NCBI RefSeq assembly: GCF_000829035.1
Contig: NZ_AP012541.1
Coordinates: 2,666,001-2,730,000, forward strand
Reading direction: 5' to 3'
Source: Lacticaseibacillus paracasei subsp. paracasei
Lineage (GTDB): Bacteria > Bacillota > Bacilli > Lactobacillales > Lactobacillaceae
DNA: 64,000 nt
Position numbers and translations under genes: made by a program. The notes under the pieces are model-generated. The model had not been told where the DNA came from, searched no databases, and saw only the letters and a list, made by a program, of their open reading frames with translations. Position 1 is the first letter of the stretch. Each line of letters opens with the position of its first letter. Shown here piece by piece: positions 4,178 through 57,032 of the stretch.

Positions 4178-5152
4178 CTATTTCGTAAACCGATTTTCAA
4201 ACAACGGTGTCACGGAACGATTTTCCTGAATCCGCATGATGGCGCGACCCATCAGCGGACCAACTGAAACCACATCCAGTTTATCCATATGCTTGTCAGC
4301 TGGAAGATTAATGGAGTCAGTCACAACAACCTTTTCAATAGCTGAGTGGGTCAAGCGTTCAACAGCCGGACCAGAGAAGATGGCATGGGTCGCGGCCACG
4401 AGCACTTCGGTCGCACCGGCATCCTTCAATGCTTGAGCAGCGAGCGTAATGGTGCCCGCAGTGTCGATCATGTCATCAATGATGATACATTGTTTGCCAG
4501 TAACATTACCAACAATATTCATCACTTCCGCAACATTCGGACGCGGACGGCGCTTGTCAATGATCGCAATCGGTGCCTTCAAGAATTCTGCTAGTTTTCG
4601 GGCACGGGTAACACCGCCATGGTCAGGTGACACGACAACGGTGTCGGCACCATCGTAGTGATTCCGTAAGAAGTAATCTGCCAGCAATGGGGCGCCGACA
4701 AGATGGTCAACCGGAATATCGAAAAATCCTTGAATCTGCGCGGCATGCAGGTCCAGCGCCAAAACACGTGTGGCGCCGGCACGTTCTAACATGTTGGCAA
4801 CAAGCTTGGCTGTGATCGGTTCCCGTGAACGGGCTTTCCGATCCTGACGGGCATAACCGTAATAAGGCATAACCACGTTGATCGTATGCGCAGAAGCGCG
4901 GCGCAAAGCATCGATCATAATCAACAGTTCCATCAAGTTGTCGTTAACCGGGCTGGAAGTGGATTGGATGAGATAAACATCATCCCCACGAATACTTTCT
5001 TCGATGTTGATTTGAATTTCACCATCGCTGAACCGCTTAACCGACGACTTTCCTAGTTTCACACCGACCTCGGCAGCGATTTTCTCTGCCAACGGCTTGT
5101 TCGAATTCAAAGCAAAAATCTTTAATCTCGGGTCACCGTATTGCTCAGACAT
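4178..5152 (-). CDS. prs: Ribose-phosphate pyrophosphokinase
   Basis: PRPP synthetase, 324 residues, makes phosphoribosyl pyrophosphate from ribose-5-phosphate and ATP for purine, pyrimidine, His, Trp and NAD synthesis. Visible motifs are [17 protein letters not shown] at the N-terminus, the flexible loop [14 protein letters not shown], the [11 protein letters not shown] segment, and the PRPP loop [12 protein letters not shown] in the form [14 protein letters not shown]. The start was moved to the Met at 5152, because GTG at 5164 overlaps the GGAGG ribosome site and the Met lies seven bases after it. It follows glmU on the same strand with a gap of about 100 bp, and purR and glmU lie upstream. 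This is a common Firmicutes arrangement around precursor metabolism. Confidence 0.96.
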
Positions 5153-51021: not shown

Positions 51022-51196
51022 GAGTTGGCGGAGCGGCGATGGGCTCAGTGGTGAGATTGGTCTTAGCAGAGTGGTTTTCTCCGCTTAGACCAAGGCCGAG
51101 CTTCGAGACAGCGCGCCGGGCTTGCGCGTTGGCTCGAAGTCGTGCCCACCACTCTAGCTTCGCGGTCGCCACCCCGAATCGCCGCGGAGCCAACTC
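51022..51196 (+). repeat. Family B three-way-junction element, copy 1
   Basis: The outer helix is built from GAGTTGGC:GCCAACTC, CGGCGAT:ATCGCCG and AGTGGTG:CACCACT. It encloses two hairpins, GGTCTTAGC:GCTTAGACC (one mismatch) and CTTCGAG:CTCGAAG with an inner CGCGC:GCGCG. It could be a structured RNA or a folded DNA element. There is no coding signal. Confidence 0.75.
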
Positions 51197-51249
51197 GGAC
51201 AATAGGATCAAGCTTAATTAGAGTAGAGCCGAGAAAAGCTTGACACATA

Positions 51250-51266
51250 CGGGCCTGCTCACGCTC
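51250..51266 (+). repeat. Family A end fragment
   Basis: CGGGCCTGCTCACGCTC resembles the CCGGGCTGGCTCACGCTC end of family A only. The rest is absent. Confidence 0.4.
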
Positions 51267-51295
51267 TTTACTTTTCCAAGTGCCCAGCGTACAAT
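51267..51295 (+). promoter_or_regulatory. Probable helD promoter
   Basis: TTTACT, a 17-bp spacer and TACAAT (51290-51295). The -35 is weak and the -10 good. Confidence 0.45.
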
Positions 51296-51335
51296 TATCG
51301 ACACCATTTTAAACACCGAAAGGAGCGCCGTTTCT

Positions 51336-53624
51336 ATGGAAAATGCAACGAAGGCAGAAGAACAGGCTCGGGTCACGGCGGTCATTGAGAAGCTCAAGGC
51401 AAGGCTAGCGGCCATTCATGACCAGATCGAAGCGGCGCACAAAGAAACCAGCCGGATTGAACGATCTTACGGTGAAAATACCAAGGTCAACGTTACCGAA
51501 GTCGATGACCAAATGGAAACCAACGCTGCGGTTCAACAGCAGAAAGTCATGGTTGCCCGCGCCGTCGAAAATGAAACCATTCTCAAACACGAAGGTAATC
51601 GTCTCACCCTGCTAGCGGACAATCCTTATTTTGGCCGTATCGATATTGACGAAGATGGCGATCCCGACACGCTTTATATCGGCACTGCCACCTTCATTGA
51701 CCAAGATGGCGAATTCTTGGTTTATGATTGGCGCGCGCCGGTAAGTTCTATTTATTACAACGGTACCCTTGGCGATGTCAGCTACGATACACCAGCAGGC
51801 GAACAACACGCCACTTTGAAAAACAAGCGTCAGTTCCAAATCGAACACGGCCACATCAAAACCATGTTCGACACCAATGAAACCGTTGGCGACGAAATCC
51901 TTCAATCCGTTTTAGGCGATCAATCAGACGAATACATGAAAAACATTGTCGCGACCATTCAGCGCGAACAAAACGACATTATTCGTGATACCACCAGCGA
52001 CTTGCTTGTGGTTCAAGGGGTCGCCGGCTCCGGGAAAACCAGTGCGGTCCTGCAACGCATTGCTTACTTGCTATATCACAGCCGTAGCGATCTGGATGCT
52101 GACCAAATGGTACTTTTCTCACCTAACCGCTTGTTTGCCAATTACATCTCACAAGTTTTGCCGAGCTTAGGCGAAAAGAATATGCGGCAGGCAACCTTGT
52201 TTGAATTCTTGGCAAACCGTTTCACCGGCTTACATGTTGAAACATTATTCGAACGTTATGAACATGATGCAGCTGGATTGCCGCCAGCTGCTGAGCATAT
52301 CCGTCGCTTTAAAGAAGCGCCGCGCTATCTTGAAGCTATCTACGACTATGCTAAGCAACCGAAGCGGACACCGCATTTTATTGACGTTGAGTTCAACGGT
52401 GAGACTTTCTTCTCAGCCGCAACCATCGCAAAAATTTATCAAGCCCAGCCAGCATTGATGCAGCCAGTTGATAAGTTTACTGCCACTAAGAATGCTTTGA
52501 TCAAACGTCTGAATACCCGGATTCATATGGAGGCCAAACGAGACTGGGCGCAGTTGCGCGTTTCCGATCTGTCACAAACTGAATTGGAAACCTTGACCGC
52601 CGATCACGAATTCGAAACCGGTGAAGATGAACAGCGATTTGTCTCGGAAGCTATTGTCTCAAAAGCATTTTCACCAATCTACGACGCACTGTACAACGAT
52701 CATTTTTACGATGTGTTCCAAGACTATCAGCAATTCATGGCACAGGTGAAACCACCCGTTGCTCCGGCTATCTGGCACACAATGGTCAACGCCTTTTCAG
52801 ACGGAATCGAAGCGCATCAATTACGCTTAGAAGATGCCATCCCGTTGCTTTATCTTCGTGATCTCAGCACCGGCAGCGGTCAAAATAGCCTGATTCAGTA
52901 TGTTTTCGTTGATGAGATGCAAGACTTCAGTATGGCGCAGTTGTTGTACTTGAAACACGCCTTTCCTAAAGCCAAGTTGACCTTATTGGGCGATGCCAAG
53001 CAAAACGTGTTTACCAGTAATTACCAGCCTAGTGATTTCATTCATGAAATCGAGGACGTTTTTTCCGGCTATAAAATTCGACTCATTACGTTAAACAAAA
53101 GCTACCGATCCACGCAACCGATTACTAACTTTGCCAAAGCTTTATTACCAGAACACGACCATATTCAGGCGTTTAACCGTGCTGGTGATAAACCAGAAGT
53201 CTTGACGGTAGCGCGCACGGAAGCGCCTGATGCTTTGTCAAAACTGGTGACGCAACTGCTGGCAACCGATACCACCGTGGCGATTCTAACCAAAGATGCC
53301 CAAACGGCTGATCAACTTTACGCCACTCTCAAACTTGATGCACCAGTCACCTTGCTATCGGCTAATGACCATAGCCTTAAAAACGGTTGTGTCATTTTGC
53401 CAGTCTATCTCGCGAAAGGTTTAGAGTTTGACGCAGTCATCGGTTGGGATATTTCTGCAACCACGTATCAAAATGAAGCCGACCGTGATATTCTCTACAC
53501 ACTTTGCTCCCGAGCCTTGCACCATCTCACACTCGTTGCTTTGGACGCCCCAAGTCCATTGATCACGGCACTGCCCGCTGATCTCTACACACATGCAGGG
53601 GATGCCTCTGAGGCGCGTGTCTAA
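51336..53624 (+). CDS. helD: RNA polymerase recycling ATPase HelD
   Basis: 762 residues. The N-terminal coiled coil (about 1-75: EEQARVTAVIEKLKARLAAI) would insert into RNA polymerase channels. The UvrD-like ATPase has GVAGSGKTSAVLQRIAYLLY (about 222-241), VFVDEMQDFSMAQ and LNKSYRSTQPI. It frees stalled polymerase from DNA or RNA using ATP. The start at 51336 follows AAAGGAG. The 5' region holds the family B element. A strong terminator follows. Confidence 0.93.
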   Translation: MENATKAEEQARVTAVIEKLKARLAAIHDQIEAAHKETSRIERSYGENTKVNVTEVDDQMETNAAVQQQKVMVARAVENETILKHEGNRLTLLADNPYFGRIDIDEDGDPDTLYIGTATFIDQDGEFLVYDWRAPVSSIYYNGTLGDVSYDTPAGEQHATLKNKRQFQIEHGHIKTMFDTNETVGDEILQSVLGDQSDEYMKNIVATIQREQNDIIRDTTSDLLVVQGVAGSGKTSAVLQRIAYLLYHSRSDLDADQMVLFSPNRLFANYISQVLPSLGEKNMRQATLFEFLANRFTGLHVETLFERYEHDAAGLPPAAEHIRRFKEAPRYLEAIYDYAKQPKRTPHFIDVEFNGETFFSAATIAKIYQAQPALMQPVDKFTATKNALIKRLNTRIHMEAKRDWAQLRVSDLSQTELETLTADHEFETGEDEQRFVSEAIVSKAFSPIYDALYNDHFYDVFQDYQQFMAQVKPPVAPAIWHTMVNAFSDGIEAHQLRLEDAIPLLYLRDLSTGSGQNSLIQYVFVDEMQDFSMAQLLYLKHAFPKAKLTLLGDAKQNVFTSNYQPSDFIHEIEDVFSGYKIRLITLNKSYRSTQPITNFAKALLPEHDHIQAFNRAGDKPEVLTVARTEAPDALSKLVTQLLATDTTVAILTKDAQTADQLYATLKLDAPVTLLSANDHSLKNGCVILPVYLAKGLEFDAVIGWDISATTYQNEADRDILYTLCSRALHHLTLVALDAPSPLITALPADLYTHAGDASEARV

Positions 53625-53647
53625 TGCCACCCATGCATCATCACATC

Positions 53648-53685
53648 AACAAACGCCCGTGTCTTCGCTGACACGGGCGTTTGTT
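53648..53685 (+). terminator. Terminator of helD
   Basis: AACAAACGCCCGTGTC and GACACGGGCGTTTGTT form a perfect 16-bp stem with a 6-base loop. Confidence 0.85.
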
Positions 53686-53763
53686 TGGCTTCTAGAATCA
53701 TGATAAATTATCAATGGGACGATTTAATCAATTCTGTTTATTAAAAATTTGGAGGGTTTGTTT

Positions 53764-54597
53764 TTGTTTAATCTACTCCGTACCTTCATGGCCGTTTACG
53801 AAACACGCAGCTTTTCCTTGGCAGCCACGCACTTATTCACCAGCCAGCCAACTGTGTCACACCATATTCATCAGCTGGAACATCAACTAAAAACAACCTT
53901 ATTTGAACGAAACAAACGCAGTGCGACGATTCCCACAGCAGCTGCTGATATTTTGTATACCTTTAGTGGCAACATGCTGGCTGAGTGGGAAAAAACGCAG
54001 GAAGCGATTCAAAATAGTCAAAAGGATGCCATTGTTGACCTGCATATTGGCGTATCGCAAAGTGTCGCCGCTGTTCTATTTTCCCGAATCGCAGCGGCTT
54101 TAAAAAAGACTTTTCCCTACTTGCAATATGATGTCGCCGTACTCAATTCCTTGCAAGTTGTCAAACAGCTGGAAGGCCAACATTTAGATTTAGGCTTTAT
54201 TGAACAACCTTTAACCTTAAAGGGCGCTGTCCGAACAACCCTTTGTACGGATCAACTGATCGCTGCAGGTTGGTCTACCGGCACTTGGATTACCCGCGAA
54301 GAAGGCTCTGGGATGCGCTATTACACCACCGCTTACCTACAAGCAGCCGGTATTTCGCCGCAACACATGATGACCGTCAATAACAATGCCATGCTGCTGG
54401 CATTGGTACAACAAGGTGTCGGGCAGGCACTTTTGTCGGATCAAGTCGCACTCGGCAATGCTCCGGCACAAGCAATTGGGCCGCAATTTCAACGGCATTT
54501 TTACTTGCTGCAAAACCCAACCGCCAATTGGCCCCACAAACAGGCCATGCTAGATAAAATTGTTGAAGCAGCTCGCGCTTCGGAAGTAACCCGCTGA
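53764..54597 (+). CDS. LysR-family transcription regulator
   Basis: 277 residues. The N-terminal winged helix has FMAVYETRSFSLAATHLFTS and QPTVSHHIHQLEHQL. The co-inducer domain follows, with LHIGVSQSVAAVL and LDLGFIEQPL. It starts at TTG (53764), seven bases after GGAGGG; TTG at 53749 lies before that site and is rejected. The convergent TDT transporter is its natural candidate target, though divergent genes are more usual. Confidence 0.88.
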   Translation: MFNLLRTFMAVYETRSFSLAATHLFTSQPTVSHHIHQLEHQLKTTLFERNKRSATIPTAAADILYTFSGNMLAEWEKTQEAIQNSQKDAIVDLHIGVSQSVAAVLFSRIAAALKKTFPYLQYDVAVLNSLQVVKQLEGQHLDLGFIEQPLTLKGAVRTTLCTDQLIAAGWSTGTWITREEGSGMRYYTTAYLQAAGISPQHMMTVNNNAMLLALVQQGVGQALLSDQVALGNAPAQAIGPQFQRHFYLLQNPTANWPHKQAMLDKIVEAARASEVTR

Positions 54598-54621
54598 TGG
54601 CCAAGCTGCTTTGGATGACTA

Positions 54622-55593
54622 TTAATCAGACAGTTCTTGAGTAGCAGTTGCTGTTTGCTTGACTGTTTTAGCTGTAAGCCGCAAAAAGTTTAGATAATGG
54701 CCGGTCACAAATATCAGCATCAAACTCGCTACAAGCCACTCACCCCACTGCAACACGCTCAACAAGTTATGCACCAACCCCTTGCTGGCAAAGATAGCAA
54801 TAAAGCGGGTCAAAGCAGTTGCGGAAATGACGAGTGGAAAGGTGAAGGCGGCAAAACTCGGATAAAACGACAGCCGCGTATACTGTCGAATGCTGAAAAG
54901 GGTCAGAAAATACAGGCACTGTGCAAAAATCAACATGCCGGTTGCAAATGCCAAATTAGGATGCGTGAAGCTGGCCAGATAACCGATCAGGCAAAGCGAA
55001 GCCGGTGCGGCGATGATCGTCAGTAAGGGCTGTGTTGCCTCAGGCAGCGGTATTGTCCTGACACGATGCAGCACAAACGGAAAAACTGCCACGTAGATCA
55101 CAAATGCAAGCCAGAAAAGGGGCTGCCCAAGTGCTGGCACGAATTTTCCACTGGTCACGGGAATGACGCCGATACCGACAAAGGTGACAAACCAGCTCGG
55201 ATAAATCATTTGCCATTCTTTTTGTTGCGGGAGCAAATGCCGTGAAACGAAAAAAATCATTAAGCCAAAATGGATAATCACTGCTAATACCCAGATGACA
55301 GTAGCGATCCCCACCGGCATTCCCCAAGCAGTTAAATAAGTGCACAAGATCATCAAGGTCATCGAAAATGTCGGCGACACCGACGCGATGATCGGATCCT
55401 GTAAACTTTTAGCTGCGTGTAAGGGAGTCAGACAAATTTTCAGTAAAATCAGTCCAAACAGCAAAGCAGCTAAGCCTCCTGTTAGGTTCCCTACTAATTG
55501 CCAACCTGCCAGTTTGTATAGATTACCCAACGATGCCAATCCCAGTGTCAGTCCCGCCATCGGTAACGGCACTCGTTTCAAAAATGATCTCAT
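54622..55593 (-). CDS. TDT-family transporter (SLAC1/TehA-like)
   Basis: 323 residues with about ten hydrophobic segments. VPLPMAGLTLGLASLGNLYK at the N-terminus and FSMTLMILCTYLTAW are typical of the tellurite-resistance/dicarboxylate family, which includes anion channels and sulfite exporters. The substrate is unknown. The start follows GGAGG. The leader is 140 bp and then the family B element. Confidence 0.85.
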   Translation of the reverse strand: MRSFLKRVPLPMAGLTLGLASLGNLYKLAGWQLVGNLTGGLAALLFGLILLKICLTPLHAAKSLQDPIIASVSPTFSMTLMILCTYLTAWGMPVGIATVIWVLAVIIHFGLMIFFVSRHLLPQQKEWQMIYPSWFVTFVGIGVIPVTSGKFVPALGQPLFWLAFVIYVAVFPFVLHRVRTIPLPEATQPLLTIIAAPASLCLIGYLASFTHPNLAFATGMLIFAQCLYFLTLFSIRQYTRLSFYPSFAAFTFPLVISATALTRFIAIFASKGLVHNLLSVLQWGEWLVASLMLIFVTGHYLNFLRLTAKTVKQTATATQELSD

Positions 55594-55738
55594 AACTGCC
55601 TCCTTATATTCTTGCTATTAAGTGTAGCAAGAATCATCGTCATCGGCTAAATTGATCTTTTGCATGATTAACATTCACTTATTGAATCAATCATGGTGAC
55701 GATCATGCGACCAATCTAGGCTAAAAGTTTCTTGCCAT

Positions 55739-55901
55739 GCCAAACTCCGCAATCTCCGGCCAGATGAGGATGGAACGCGTGACGGCGCTTCGAGCCCAAA
55801 AAGCGGTCTCGAAGTCGCCTAACAACATCAGCGACAAAGCCCGGTCGCTGTGTTGTTTGCACAGCTGATCCCCATCCGGCCTACGATTGCTTCGCCTTGG
55901 C
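55739..55901 (-). repeat. Family B three-way-junction element, copy 2
   Basis: The outer helix is GCCAA:TTGGC, GCAATC:GATTGC, GGCC:GGCC and GGATGG:CCATCC. Inside are CTTCGAG:CTCGAAG and ACAACATCAGCGAC:GTCGCTGTGTTGT. On the minus strand the hairpin order equals that of copy 1 on plus. CTTCGAGAC and GGCTCGAAG are shared. Confidence 0.75.
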
Positions 55902-55940
55902 ACTGGGATCTTTAAAACCCCAATAAATCATTTATGAGAA

Positions 55941-55980
55941 AATAAAAAATGAACAACTTCCAATTGCGAAAATTGTTCAT
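55941..55980 (-). terminator. Terminator of the CPBP gene
   Basis: ATGAACAA and TTGTTCAT with an AAT-rich interior; TTTTTTATTTT follows on the minus strand. Confidence 0.75.
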
Positions 55981-56028
55981 TCTTATTTGACGCTTATGAA
56001 TGATGTCCTAACCTTAGTTTGGAAAATT

Positions 56029-56749: not shown

Positions 56750-56914
56750 GTGAAGAGGCGTGTCATGCTTAGAAAGTGAAGCATAAGGTCCCACCATAAC
56801 GCGCGAATCATCCCAAAAACCTACGCATAAGGAGCTTAGTCGTAATGATCAAAGCCCGACCTCACGTCCAAGACCACATACTTTCCGGTTTCTAACCGGG
56901 TTGGTTCGTGCTCA
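56750..56914 (-). repeat. Family A repeat, degenerate copies 10 and 11
   Basis: 56798-56914 is a worn full-length copy: AACGCGCGAATCATCCC, ACCTACGCATAAGGAGC and TTTCCGGTTTCTAACCGGG. 56750-56795 holds one arm of another, GTCATGCTTAGAAAGTGAAG. The inner stem has decayed. Confidence 0.6.
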
Positions 56915-56915
56915 C

Positions 56916-56947
56916 AAAAAAACCTGACAGATTTAATATCTGTCAGG
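56916..56947 (-). terminator. Terminator of tRNA-Thr
   Basis: CCTGACAGAT and ATCTGTCAGG with a 5-base loop, then seven T on the minus strand. Confidence 0.9.
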
Positions 56948-56959
56948 CGCGGTACTATC

Positions 56960-57032
56960 AGCCGTCTATCGGATTCGAACCGACGACCTCATCCTTACCA
57001 TGGATGCGCTCTACCGACTGAGCTAAGACGGC
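56960..57032 (-). tRNA. tRNA-Thr (GGT)
   Basis: 73 bases on the minus strand. Acceptor GCCGTCT pairs with AGACGGC, D-arm GCTCAGTCGGTAGAGC, anticodon arm CATCC-ATGGTAA-GGATG with anticodon GGT, and T-arm with GGTTCGAATCC. The discriminator is U. CCA is not encoded. Confidence 0.96.

Follow-up and report, generated by a model that had tools for sequence, protein, structure and literature searches.

Two folded elements of Lacticaseibacillus paracasei represent two subfamilies of one dispersed, non-coding chromosomal repeat family of the Lactobacillaceae

In a stretch of 64,000 nucleotides from Lacticaseibacillus paracasei subsp. paracasei (contig NZ_AP012541.1, positions 2,666,001 to 2,730,000 of the forward strand; hereafter the window), two segments that share little overall sequence fold alike. 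The locus raises the question of what these segments are, and whether their shape is maintained as RNA or as DNA. A first-pass annotation, made from the sequence alone, described them as two diverged copies of a single element. We find instead that they are members of two subfamilies, A (copy 1) and B (copy 2), present at 20 and 40 places in the L. paracasei genome respectively, and that A and B belong to one large family of dispersed, non-coding chromosomal repeats. This family is apparently undescribed: no description of it was recognised in the full-text literature, where few subscription papers are covered.

Folding recovered, for both copies, the architecture proposed earlier: an outer helix that is interrupted and surrounds two hairpins, whose order is the same in each (Table 1). 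Their minimum free energies are -97.1 kcal/mol (copy 1, z -6.23) and -87.7 kcal/mol (copy 2, z -7.83), and in each case 0 of 200 shuffles was as stable. The CTTCGAGAC/GGCTCGAAG hairpin is indeed the part alike in copies 1 and 2; the remaining helices differ, yet pair. On its sense strand the unit, of about 150-190 bp, can form an outer stem, interrupted by purine loops (GGA/GGA or alike), around two hairpins with fixed mismatches. As to its extent, the three-way-junction core stands as first drawn, but the recurring unit is wider: many B copies (the flank survey covered 37 of the 40) are accompanied by an A/T-rich flank, by a terminator-like hairpin (at 55945-55984 for copy 2) and by an end motif of 16 bases (at 55999-56014). 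With up to two mismatches the end motif AGGTTAGGACATCATT has 27 matches in the L. paracasei genome, against 3 for the reversed control. The (G)ATAGAA motif in the 5' flank of A is no recognisable promoter. A different dispersed repeat of about 125 bp lies elsewhere in the window (56789-56922), where it adjoins a tRNA gene (56960-57032); among the matches listed, it has dozens, at 76-82% identity, in the genomes G005, G006, G019 and G028.

Table 1. Positions of the two elements, their parts and neighbouring signals in the window
Feature	Positions	Strand	Basis or remark
5' flank of A, recurring motif (G)ATAGAA	51005..51021	+	present in most A flanks; promoter scan about as for shuffled sequence
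Copy 1, subfamily A, whole three-way-junction element	51022..51196	+	fold z, 20 genomic places, match to covariance model R1
Copy 1 outer stem, GGA/GGA internal loop, 5' side	51027..51034	+	partner 51184-51191; loop type counted
Copy 1 hairpin 1	51057..51093	+	fold, covariation
Copy 1 hairpin 2 (CTTCGAGAC...GGCTCGAAG) with A/G non-pair	51094..51146	+	fold; A/G in 39 of 41
Copy 1 long 3' module CTCTAGCTTCGCGGTCGCCA	51152..51171	+	other copies carry the short CGTTCCA module in exchange
Candidate helicase promoter TTTACT-17-TACAAT	51267..51295	+	3' of copy 1; read by eye
B 3' flank (ATGGCAAGAAACTTTTAGCC), recurring	55719..55738	-	B flank comparison
Copy 2, subfamily B, three-way-junction core	55739..55901	-	fold z -7.83; 40 genomic places
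Copy 2 short 3' module (GCGTTCCATCC)	55768..55778	-	alignment of copies
Copy 2 hairpin 2, part alike in both copies	55784..55819	-	fold
Copy 2 hairpin 1	55821..55857	-	fold
B A/T-rich 5' flank (TTTTAAAGA), recurring	55906..55919	-	B flank comparison
Terminator-like hairpin 5' of copy 2	55945..55984	-	18 pairs and T-rich tail
End motif AGGTTAGGACATCATT of the larger B unit	55999..56014	-	pattern matching

The copies were counted by blastn searches of the home genome (3.02 Mb, 3 contigs), and some of the places counted are fragments. Copy 1 as query gave 32 rows; once 2 pieces had been merged, and 6 B copies and 4 rows with E > 0.4 set aside, the 20 places of A were left. With copy 2, 43 rows gave the 40 places of B after 3 pieces were merged. 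A covariance model of the A-type core (R1) finds 47 places in this genome (E <= 1e-4), copy 1 itself scoring 105.6 bits over contig 1 positions 2717041-2717175 (window 51041-51175). Cores were extracted from 16 A and 34 B copies, of which 15 and 32 respectively were aligned; three aligned rows overran the element. Hairpin 2, the short 3' module (CGTTCCAGCC) and the long 3' module (CTCTAGCTNCGCGTCGCC) are exchangeable parts, each present in both A and B, and the relatives G005, G006 and G028 hold A-like cores within B-like outer arms. Arms, hairpins and 3' module are combined differently among copies.

The suggestion that pairing is kept while the sequence changes was borne out by the covariation test. 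Among 142 distinct sequences (from the best 150 of 168 matches, in an alignment fitted to R1 itself) two-sided changes affect 32 of the 35 pairs, and pairing holds in 96.5% of the cells; the covariation score reaches 0.619, where shuffled data give 0.178 and slid partners 0.05-0.08. A MAFFT alignment that was not model-fitted, of 41 sequences hand-chosen from 109 pattern matches (a few of these being non-elements; B-type cores and near duplicates were left out), has two-sided changes at 26 of 35 pairs. Disparities nevertheless appear between the subfamilies of the home genome: own A copies alone show two-sided changes at 25 of 57 pairs, own B copies at only 4 of 48, so that the case for covariation rests on A and on the other species. 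Exchange of whole hairpins may lie behind part of it; as a counterpoint, hairpin 1 has 35 distinct sequences among the 41 copies.

Some positions remain unpaired throughout this variation. The T·T of hairpin 1 persists in 36 of the 41 sequences and the A·G of hairpin 2 in 39. When 83 elements from named genomes were folded, 36 GGA/GGA loops were counted, and 38 elements had a 3x3 loop with GA on both sides, which means that over half of the 83 lack such a loop in their best fold. For 44 own copies the counts were 26 GGA/GGA and 28 GTA/GGA loops.

Homologues beyond the two sites are many, in L. paracasei as well as in its relatives. Among 30 Lacticaseibacillus genomes R1 has matches in 21, which hold from 2 to 75 copies each, and among 161 sampled Lactobacillaceae genomes in 44, which fall in 12 of 40 genera (at most 23 candidates being scored per genome in this survey). 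From an order sample of 198 genomes, for which the number belonging outside Lactobacillaceae is not given, 4 match R1, all of the own family among the matches listed. The exact core pattern matches at least 120 stretches of the GTDB contigs. The 80 matches listed all bear Lactobacillaceae names (Lactiplantibacillus, Lapidilactobacillus, Levilactobacillus, Lacticaseibacillus, Companilactobacillus, Pediococcus and Loigolactobacillus, as well as metagenome-assembled genomes named Lactobacillus). So far, the repeat family is known only from Lactobacillaceae. One Lacticaseibacillus genome (G011) has 75 R1 matches, yet its best E-value is only 3.2e-14; judged from these scores, its copies would be a strongly diverged, expanded subfamily. 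In a genome of another genus (G079), several matches to model positions 8-105 have an unusual length of 150-158 bases, which may reflect a variant whose hairpin is enlarged.

We then considered the placement of the elements relative to genes. As first reported, copy 1 lies in sense 5' of a UvrD-like helicase gene (earlier named helD) and copy 2 in sense upstream of the gene earlier called TDT, which has a Pfam SLAC1 match. Sense placement before the next gene is usual for A (14 of 18) and does not hold for B (11 of 39; Fisher p 0.0006), the next gene being antisense to B in 28 of 39 cases. B lies downstream of a gene in sense in 28 of 38 cases and between convergent genes in 20 of 39. These values come from the L. 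paracasei genome with crude gene calls: within 600 bases, the longest frame free of stops, if it had at least 70 codons, was taken as the gene, and clipping affected 1 A and 1 B place. On their 5' side, 17 of the 40 B copies have a terminator-like hairpin, the 17 stems all being different, as does 1 of the 20 A copies. Over the named loci, 109 of 116 elements are intergenic and 7 overlap a called ORF. A general role as cis-acting 5' leader was not supported: the next gene is in sense for 46 and antisense for 59 of 105 elements. At the helicase locus itself, TTTACT-17-TACAAT is a probable promoter of the gene. It lies downstream of copy 1, and comparable hexamers are present in three relatives that have no copy 1 at this site; on these grounds copy 1 is probably not part of the helicase leader.

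The elements often occur in pairs. At distances under 1 kb there are 51 distinct neighbours: 42 stand head-to-head, 9 share one direction and 0 are tail-to-tail; the head-to-head spacers measure 101 to 955 bases (median 364), and many close pairs associate unlike elements. In L. achengensis two unlike elements and their spacer form one unit, with six aligned examples of 636-709 bp. These units (loci L217, L245, L247, L253, L266 and L294) have spacers of about 400-480 bases, in which no function was seen.

Comparison of sites between genomes gives a picture of turnover. In the closed genome G153 the cores of the 20 fetched copies, each at a place of its own, are similar and fall into two main types; upstream modules of two kinds recur among these copies, and the flanks beyond differ. 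The outer-arm pattern gives 67 and 76 matches there, against 16 and 23 for the reversed control. G005, G006 and G028 have orthologous sites without copy 1 and without copy 2, a plain hairpin followed by a T run, with no B, standing at the site of copy 2. The helicase site of G019 carries an A copy in the opposite orientation. Similar copies at different places and sites devoid of the element in relatives suggest that the elements have been mobile. No clean empty site with a target duplication was found at the orthologous sites in relatives, and a head-to-head pair of G153 traced into four genomes of its genus gave no clean boundary. At the place orthologous to this pair (L379), G176 carries, in replacement of the three-way-junction pair, a single long hairpin with CCCGGAGGATAAC and GTTATCTCGGAGGG; this hairpin, which has GGA loops and no junction, points to a broader class of repeats that carry loops of this type.

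A candidate for the enzyme that would move them was sought among known transposases. Of the 30 Lacticaseibacillus genomes, 13 have PF01797 (Y1_Tnp), including some without copies, and its presence does not track the copy number of the element. There is no match in the L. paracasei home genome (47 copies), in G005 (40) or in G011 (75), which leaves a resident Y1 transposase unsupported as mobiliser in the home genome. When 646 ORFs around elements were clustered, the 14 most widespread clusters contained no transposase by eye; they resemble ordinary genes, such as those for ABC transporters and MFS proteins. Nor was there support for an autonomous element whose gene would lie between the paired copies: no shared open frame was seen among 20 pairs, although some of their spacers hold stop-free stretches of up to 99 codons.

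Carriage by phages or plasmids was not supported either. A search of 50,697 phage records with B gave no match, and two exact element patterns have none in viral contigs. Of 72,556 plasmid records, 5 match A and 2 match B, with matches of up to 98.5%, and a third query matches none. Three of the five A records were inspected and carry the same transporter genes that adjoin copy 1 in the window; for B, one record has the neighbourhood of the genomic copy at 2062054 and the other holds a different copy. Empty sites sought on plasmids yielded insertion sequences only. On the L. paracasei plasmids NZ_CP080339.1 and NZ_CP064305.1 (positions 5067-5080), A beside the same transporter genes breaks off within hairpin 1, at about its base 45, and some 10 bases past the break the annotated gene of an IS5-family transposase starts; an insertion sequence seems to have entered hairpin 1 of A on these plasmids.

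What kind of object do these observations describe? The first-pass annotation offered a structured RNA or a mobile folded DNA; the second reading fits better and the first less well. In the RNA reading, the elements would form a multicopy family of structured RNAs, each transcribed through read-through or from a promoter of its own, and would act as RNA or as a ribonucleoprotein scaffold, their dispersal being secondary. We regard this as unlikely, in spite of the covariation of the helices, of purine loops conserved on the sense strand, of a sense strand that folds better than the antisense in 37 of 44 own copies, and of the sense position of A before genes. If selection acts on RNA, more G·T than A·C is expected at sense-strand pairs. 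The raw cells do show such an excess (139 G·T against 46 A·C; 95 against 41 at pairs with a Watson-Crick majority; 15 against 12 in the first 41 sequences), but these cells are not independent of each other. Counted as pair-by-type events, the values for G·T and A·C in four alignments are 15/11, 7/4, 13/11 and 4/5, with no significant excess of G·T. When nearest relatives are compared, one Watson-Crick pair replaces another in 473 cases; 67 changes lead to G·T, 19 lead to A·C and 41 are of other kinds. Nor does a sigma-70-type promoter stand out 5' of the elements in 16 A, 37 B and 20 G153 flanks: the mean best scores for A, B and G153 are 8.22, 8.26 and 8.10, against 7.99, 8.24 and 8.37 after shuffling, which gives no support to a promoter of their own. 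The antisense position of most B copies and the putative helicase promoter downstream of copy 1 also speak against an RNA. As to the level of the constraint, our results lean slightly toward DNA. Together, the head-to-head doublets, the dependence of gene orientation on the subfamily, the lack of a promoter signal and the large preponderance of two-sided Watson-Crick changes over wobble intermediates favour the DNA reading.

Our best reading, which we hold with moderate confidence, is that the elements are folded, non-autonomous, dispersed DNA repeats. They would spread as DNA units through a folded single-stranded or cruciform form, recognised by a trans-acting enzyme that the elements do not encode; the fixed mismatches could serve this recognition or guard against cleavage of the palindrome. 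The elements would be tolerated between transcription units, A mostly before genes and B mostly after genes beside terminators, and may insulate the neighbouring units. Several points weigh against folded DNA repeats: no mobiliser emerged from the Y1_Tnp search or from the 14 most widespread neighbouring protein clusters, no exact ends or target duplication could be established at the sites compared, near absence from plasmids and phages is unusual for an active mobile element, and the raw excess of G·T and the better folding of the sense strand both suit RNA. Tentatively, and with more doubt than belief, we also envisage a new class of mobile bacterial DNA: a single-stranded three-way-junction substrate with GGA/GGA loops, arranged in head-to-head unlike doublets, moved by a hypothetical enzyme of Lactobacillaceae and maintained on chromosomes through vertical inheritance. 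Comparable roles in chromosome organisation or insulation have been proposed for BIMEs, and by analogy the elements might be chromosomal sites bound by a nucleoid, topology or repair protein, which would organise the chromosome or separate transcription units. Their intergenic position, their rarity on phages and plasmids, the subfamily-specific siting and the terminator-like hairpins that accompany B agree with such a role; we nevertheless find it improbable, given that fixed single-strand loops are unexpected for a duplex binding site and that the copy number varies from 0 to 75 within Lacticaseibacillus, so that the element is not essential. We give very little credence to non-functional debris of an old transposon, an ordinary MITE with terminal inverted repeats whose pairing would come from palindrome correction or whole-hairpin exchange only. 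The TIR-like end motif in part of the B copies recalls such an origin, and the dominance of two-sided changes is what templated correction or hairpin exchange predicts, but T.T, A.G and the GGA/GGA loops persist where correction would erase them, and the same core is found in 12 of the 40 sampled genera.

In many lactobacilli, including food species, a structured repeat absent from Rfam is present in tens of copies; it matters for the annotation, assembly and typing of these bacteria and for mapping their promoters and terminators. With paired bases that change together and few wobble intermediates, the family is a test case for distinguishing DNA-level from RNA-level constraint. The mobiliser is a concrete target for searches, with a copy number that spans 0 to 75 in Lacticaseibacillus.

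Among known systems, Rfam structured RNAs resemble the family by a covarying three-way junction and differ in that none of their models convincingly matches the family: a search of the window at gathering level returned a tRNA only, and 15 loci searched at E <= 1 gave only one match, to mir-55, which is insignificant. Membership of a known Rfam family is accordingly not supported. With ERIC, NEMIS, RUP and other MITEs the elements have in common that they are small, non-coding, intergenic repeats with strong secondary structure; in contrast to these, the lactobacilli core is shared over many genera, and clean terminal inverted repeats with a target duplication could not be established, part of the B copies having a TIR-like motif. 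REP/BIME and REPIN with RAYT are closer, by copies that are numerous on the chromosome, by hairpins that pair imperfectly and by inverted doublets that join unlike units (here 42 of 51 head-to-head), although the RAYT-type Y1 transposase has no match in the L. paracasei genome. EFAR repeats are modular and show changes at complementary positions, and may be the same as the Efa-1 family. Exchanged modules and compensatory changes are likewise present in the lactobacilli repeats, a likeness drawn by description only. EFAR is named in the literature as palindromic repeats of Enterococci (PMC3733652), and Efa-1 is given as a family of 163 bp with 65 copies, each a pair of adjacent stem-loops (PMC2267715); the shared traits are an intergenic position, tens of copies, palindromic sequence forming stem-loops and a lactic acid bacterium as host. 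In PMC2267715, the Lactobacillus covered is L. johnsonii, with a family inside coding sequence. REPINs are described in PMC8049555 with these traits and with little sign of horizontal transfer, which the lactobacilli repeats share; REP units are described as hairpins of 20-40 bp (PMC3733652), and the lactobacilli unit differs from them by its 150-190 bp and its three-way junction. On these traits, EFAR (by description only) and BIME/REPIN would be the nearest kinds, like which the lactobacilli repeats may work. In our reading, copies 1 and 2 are less likely to be an RNA gene than folded DNA repeats dispersed between transcription units, of the same kind as BIME and EFAR but with an architecture that is new.
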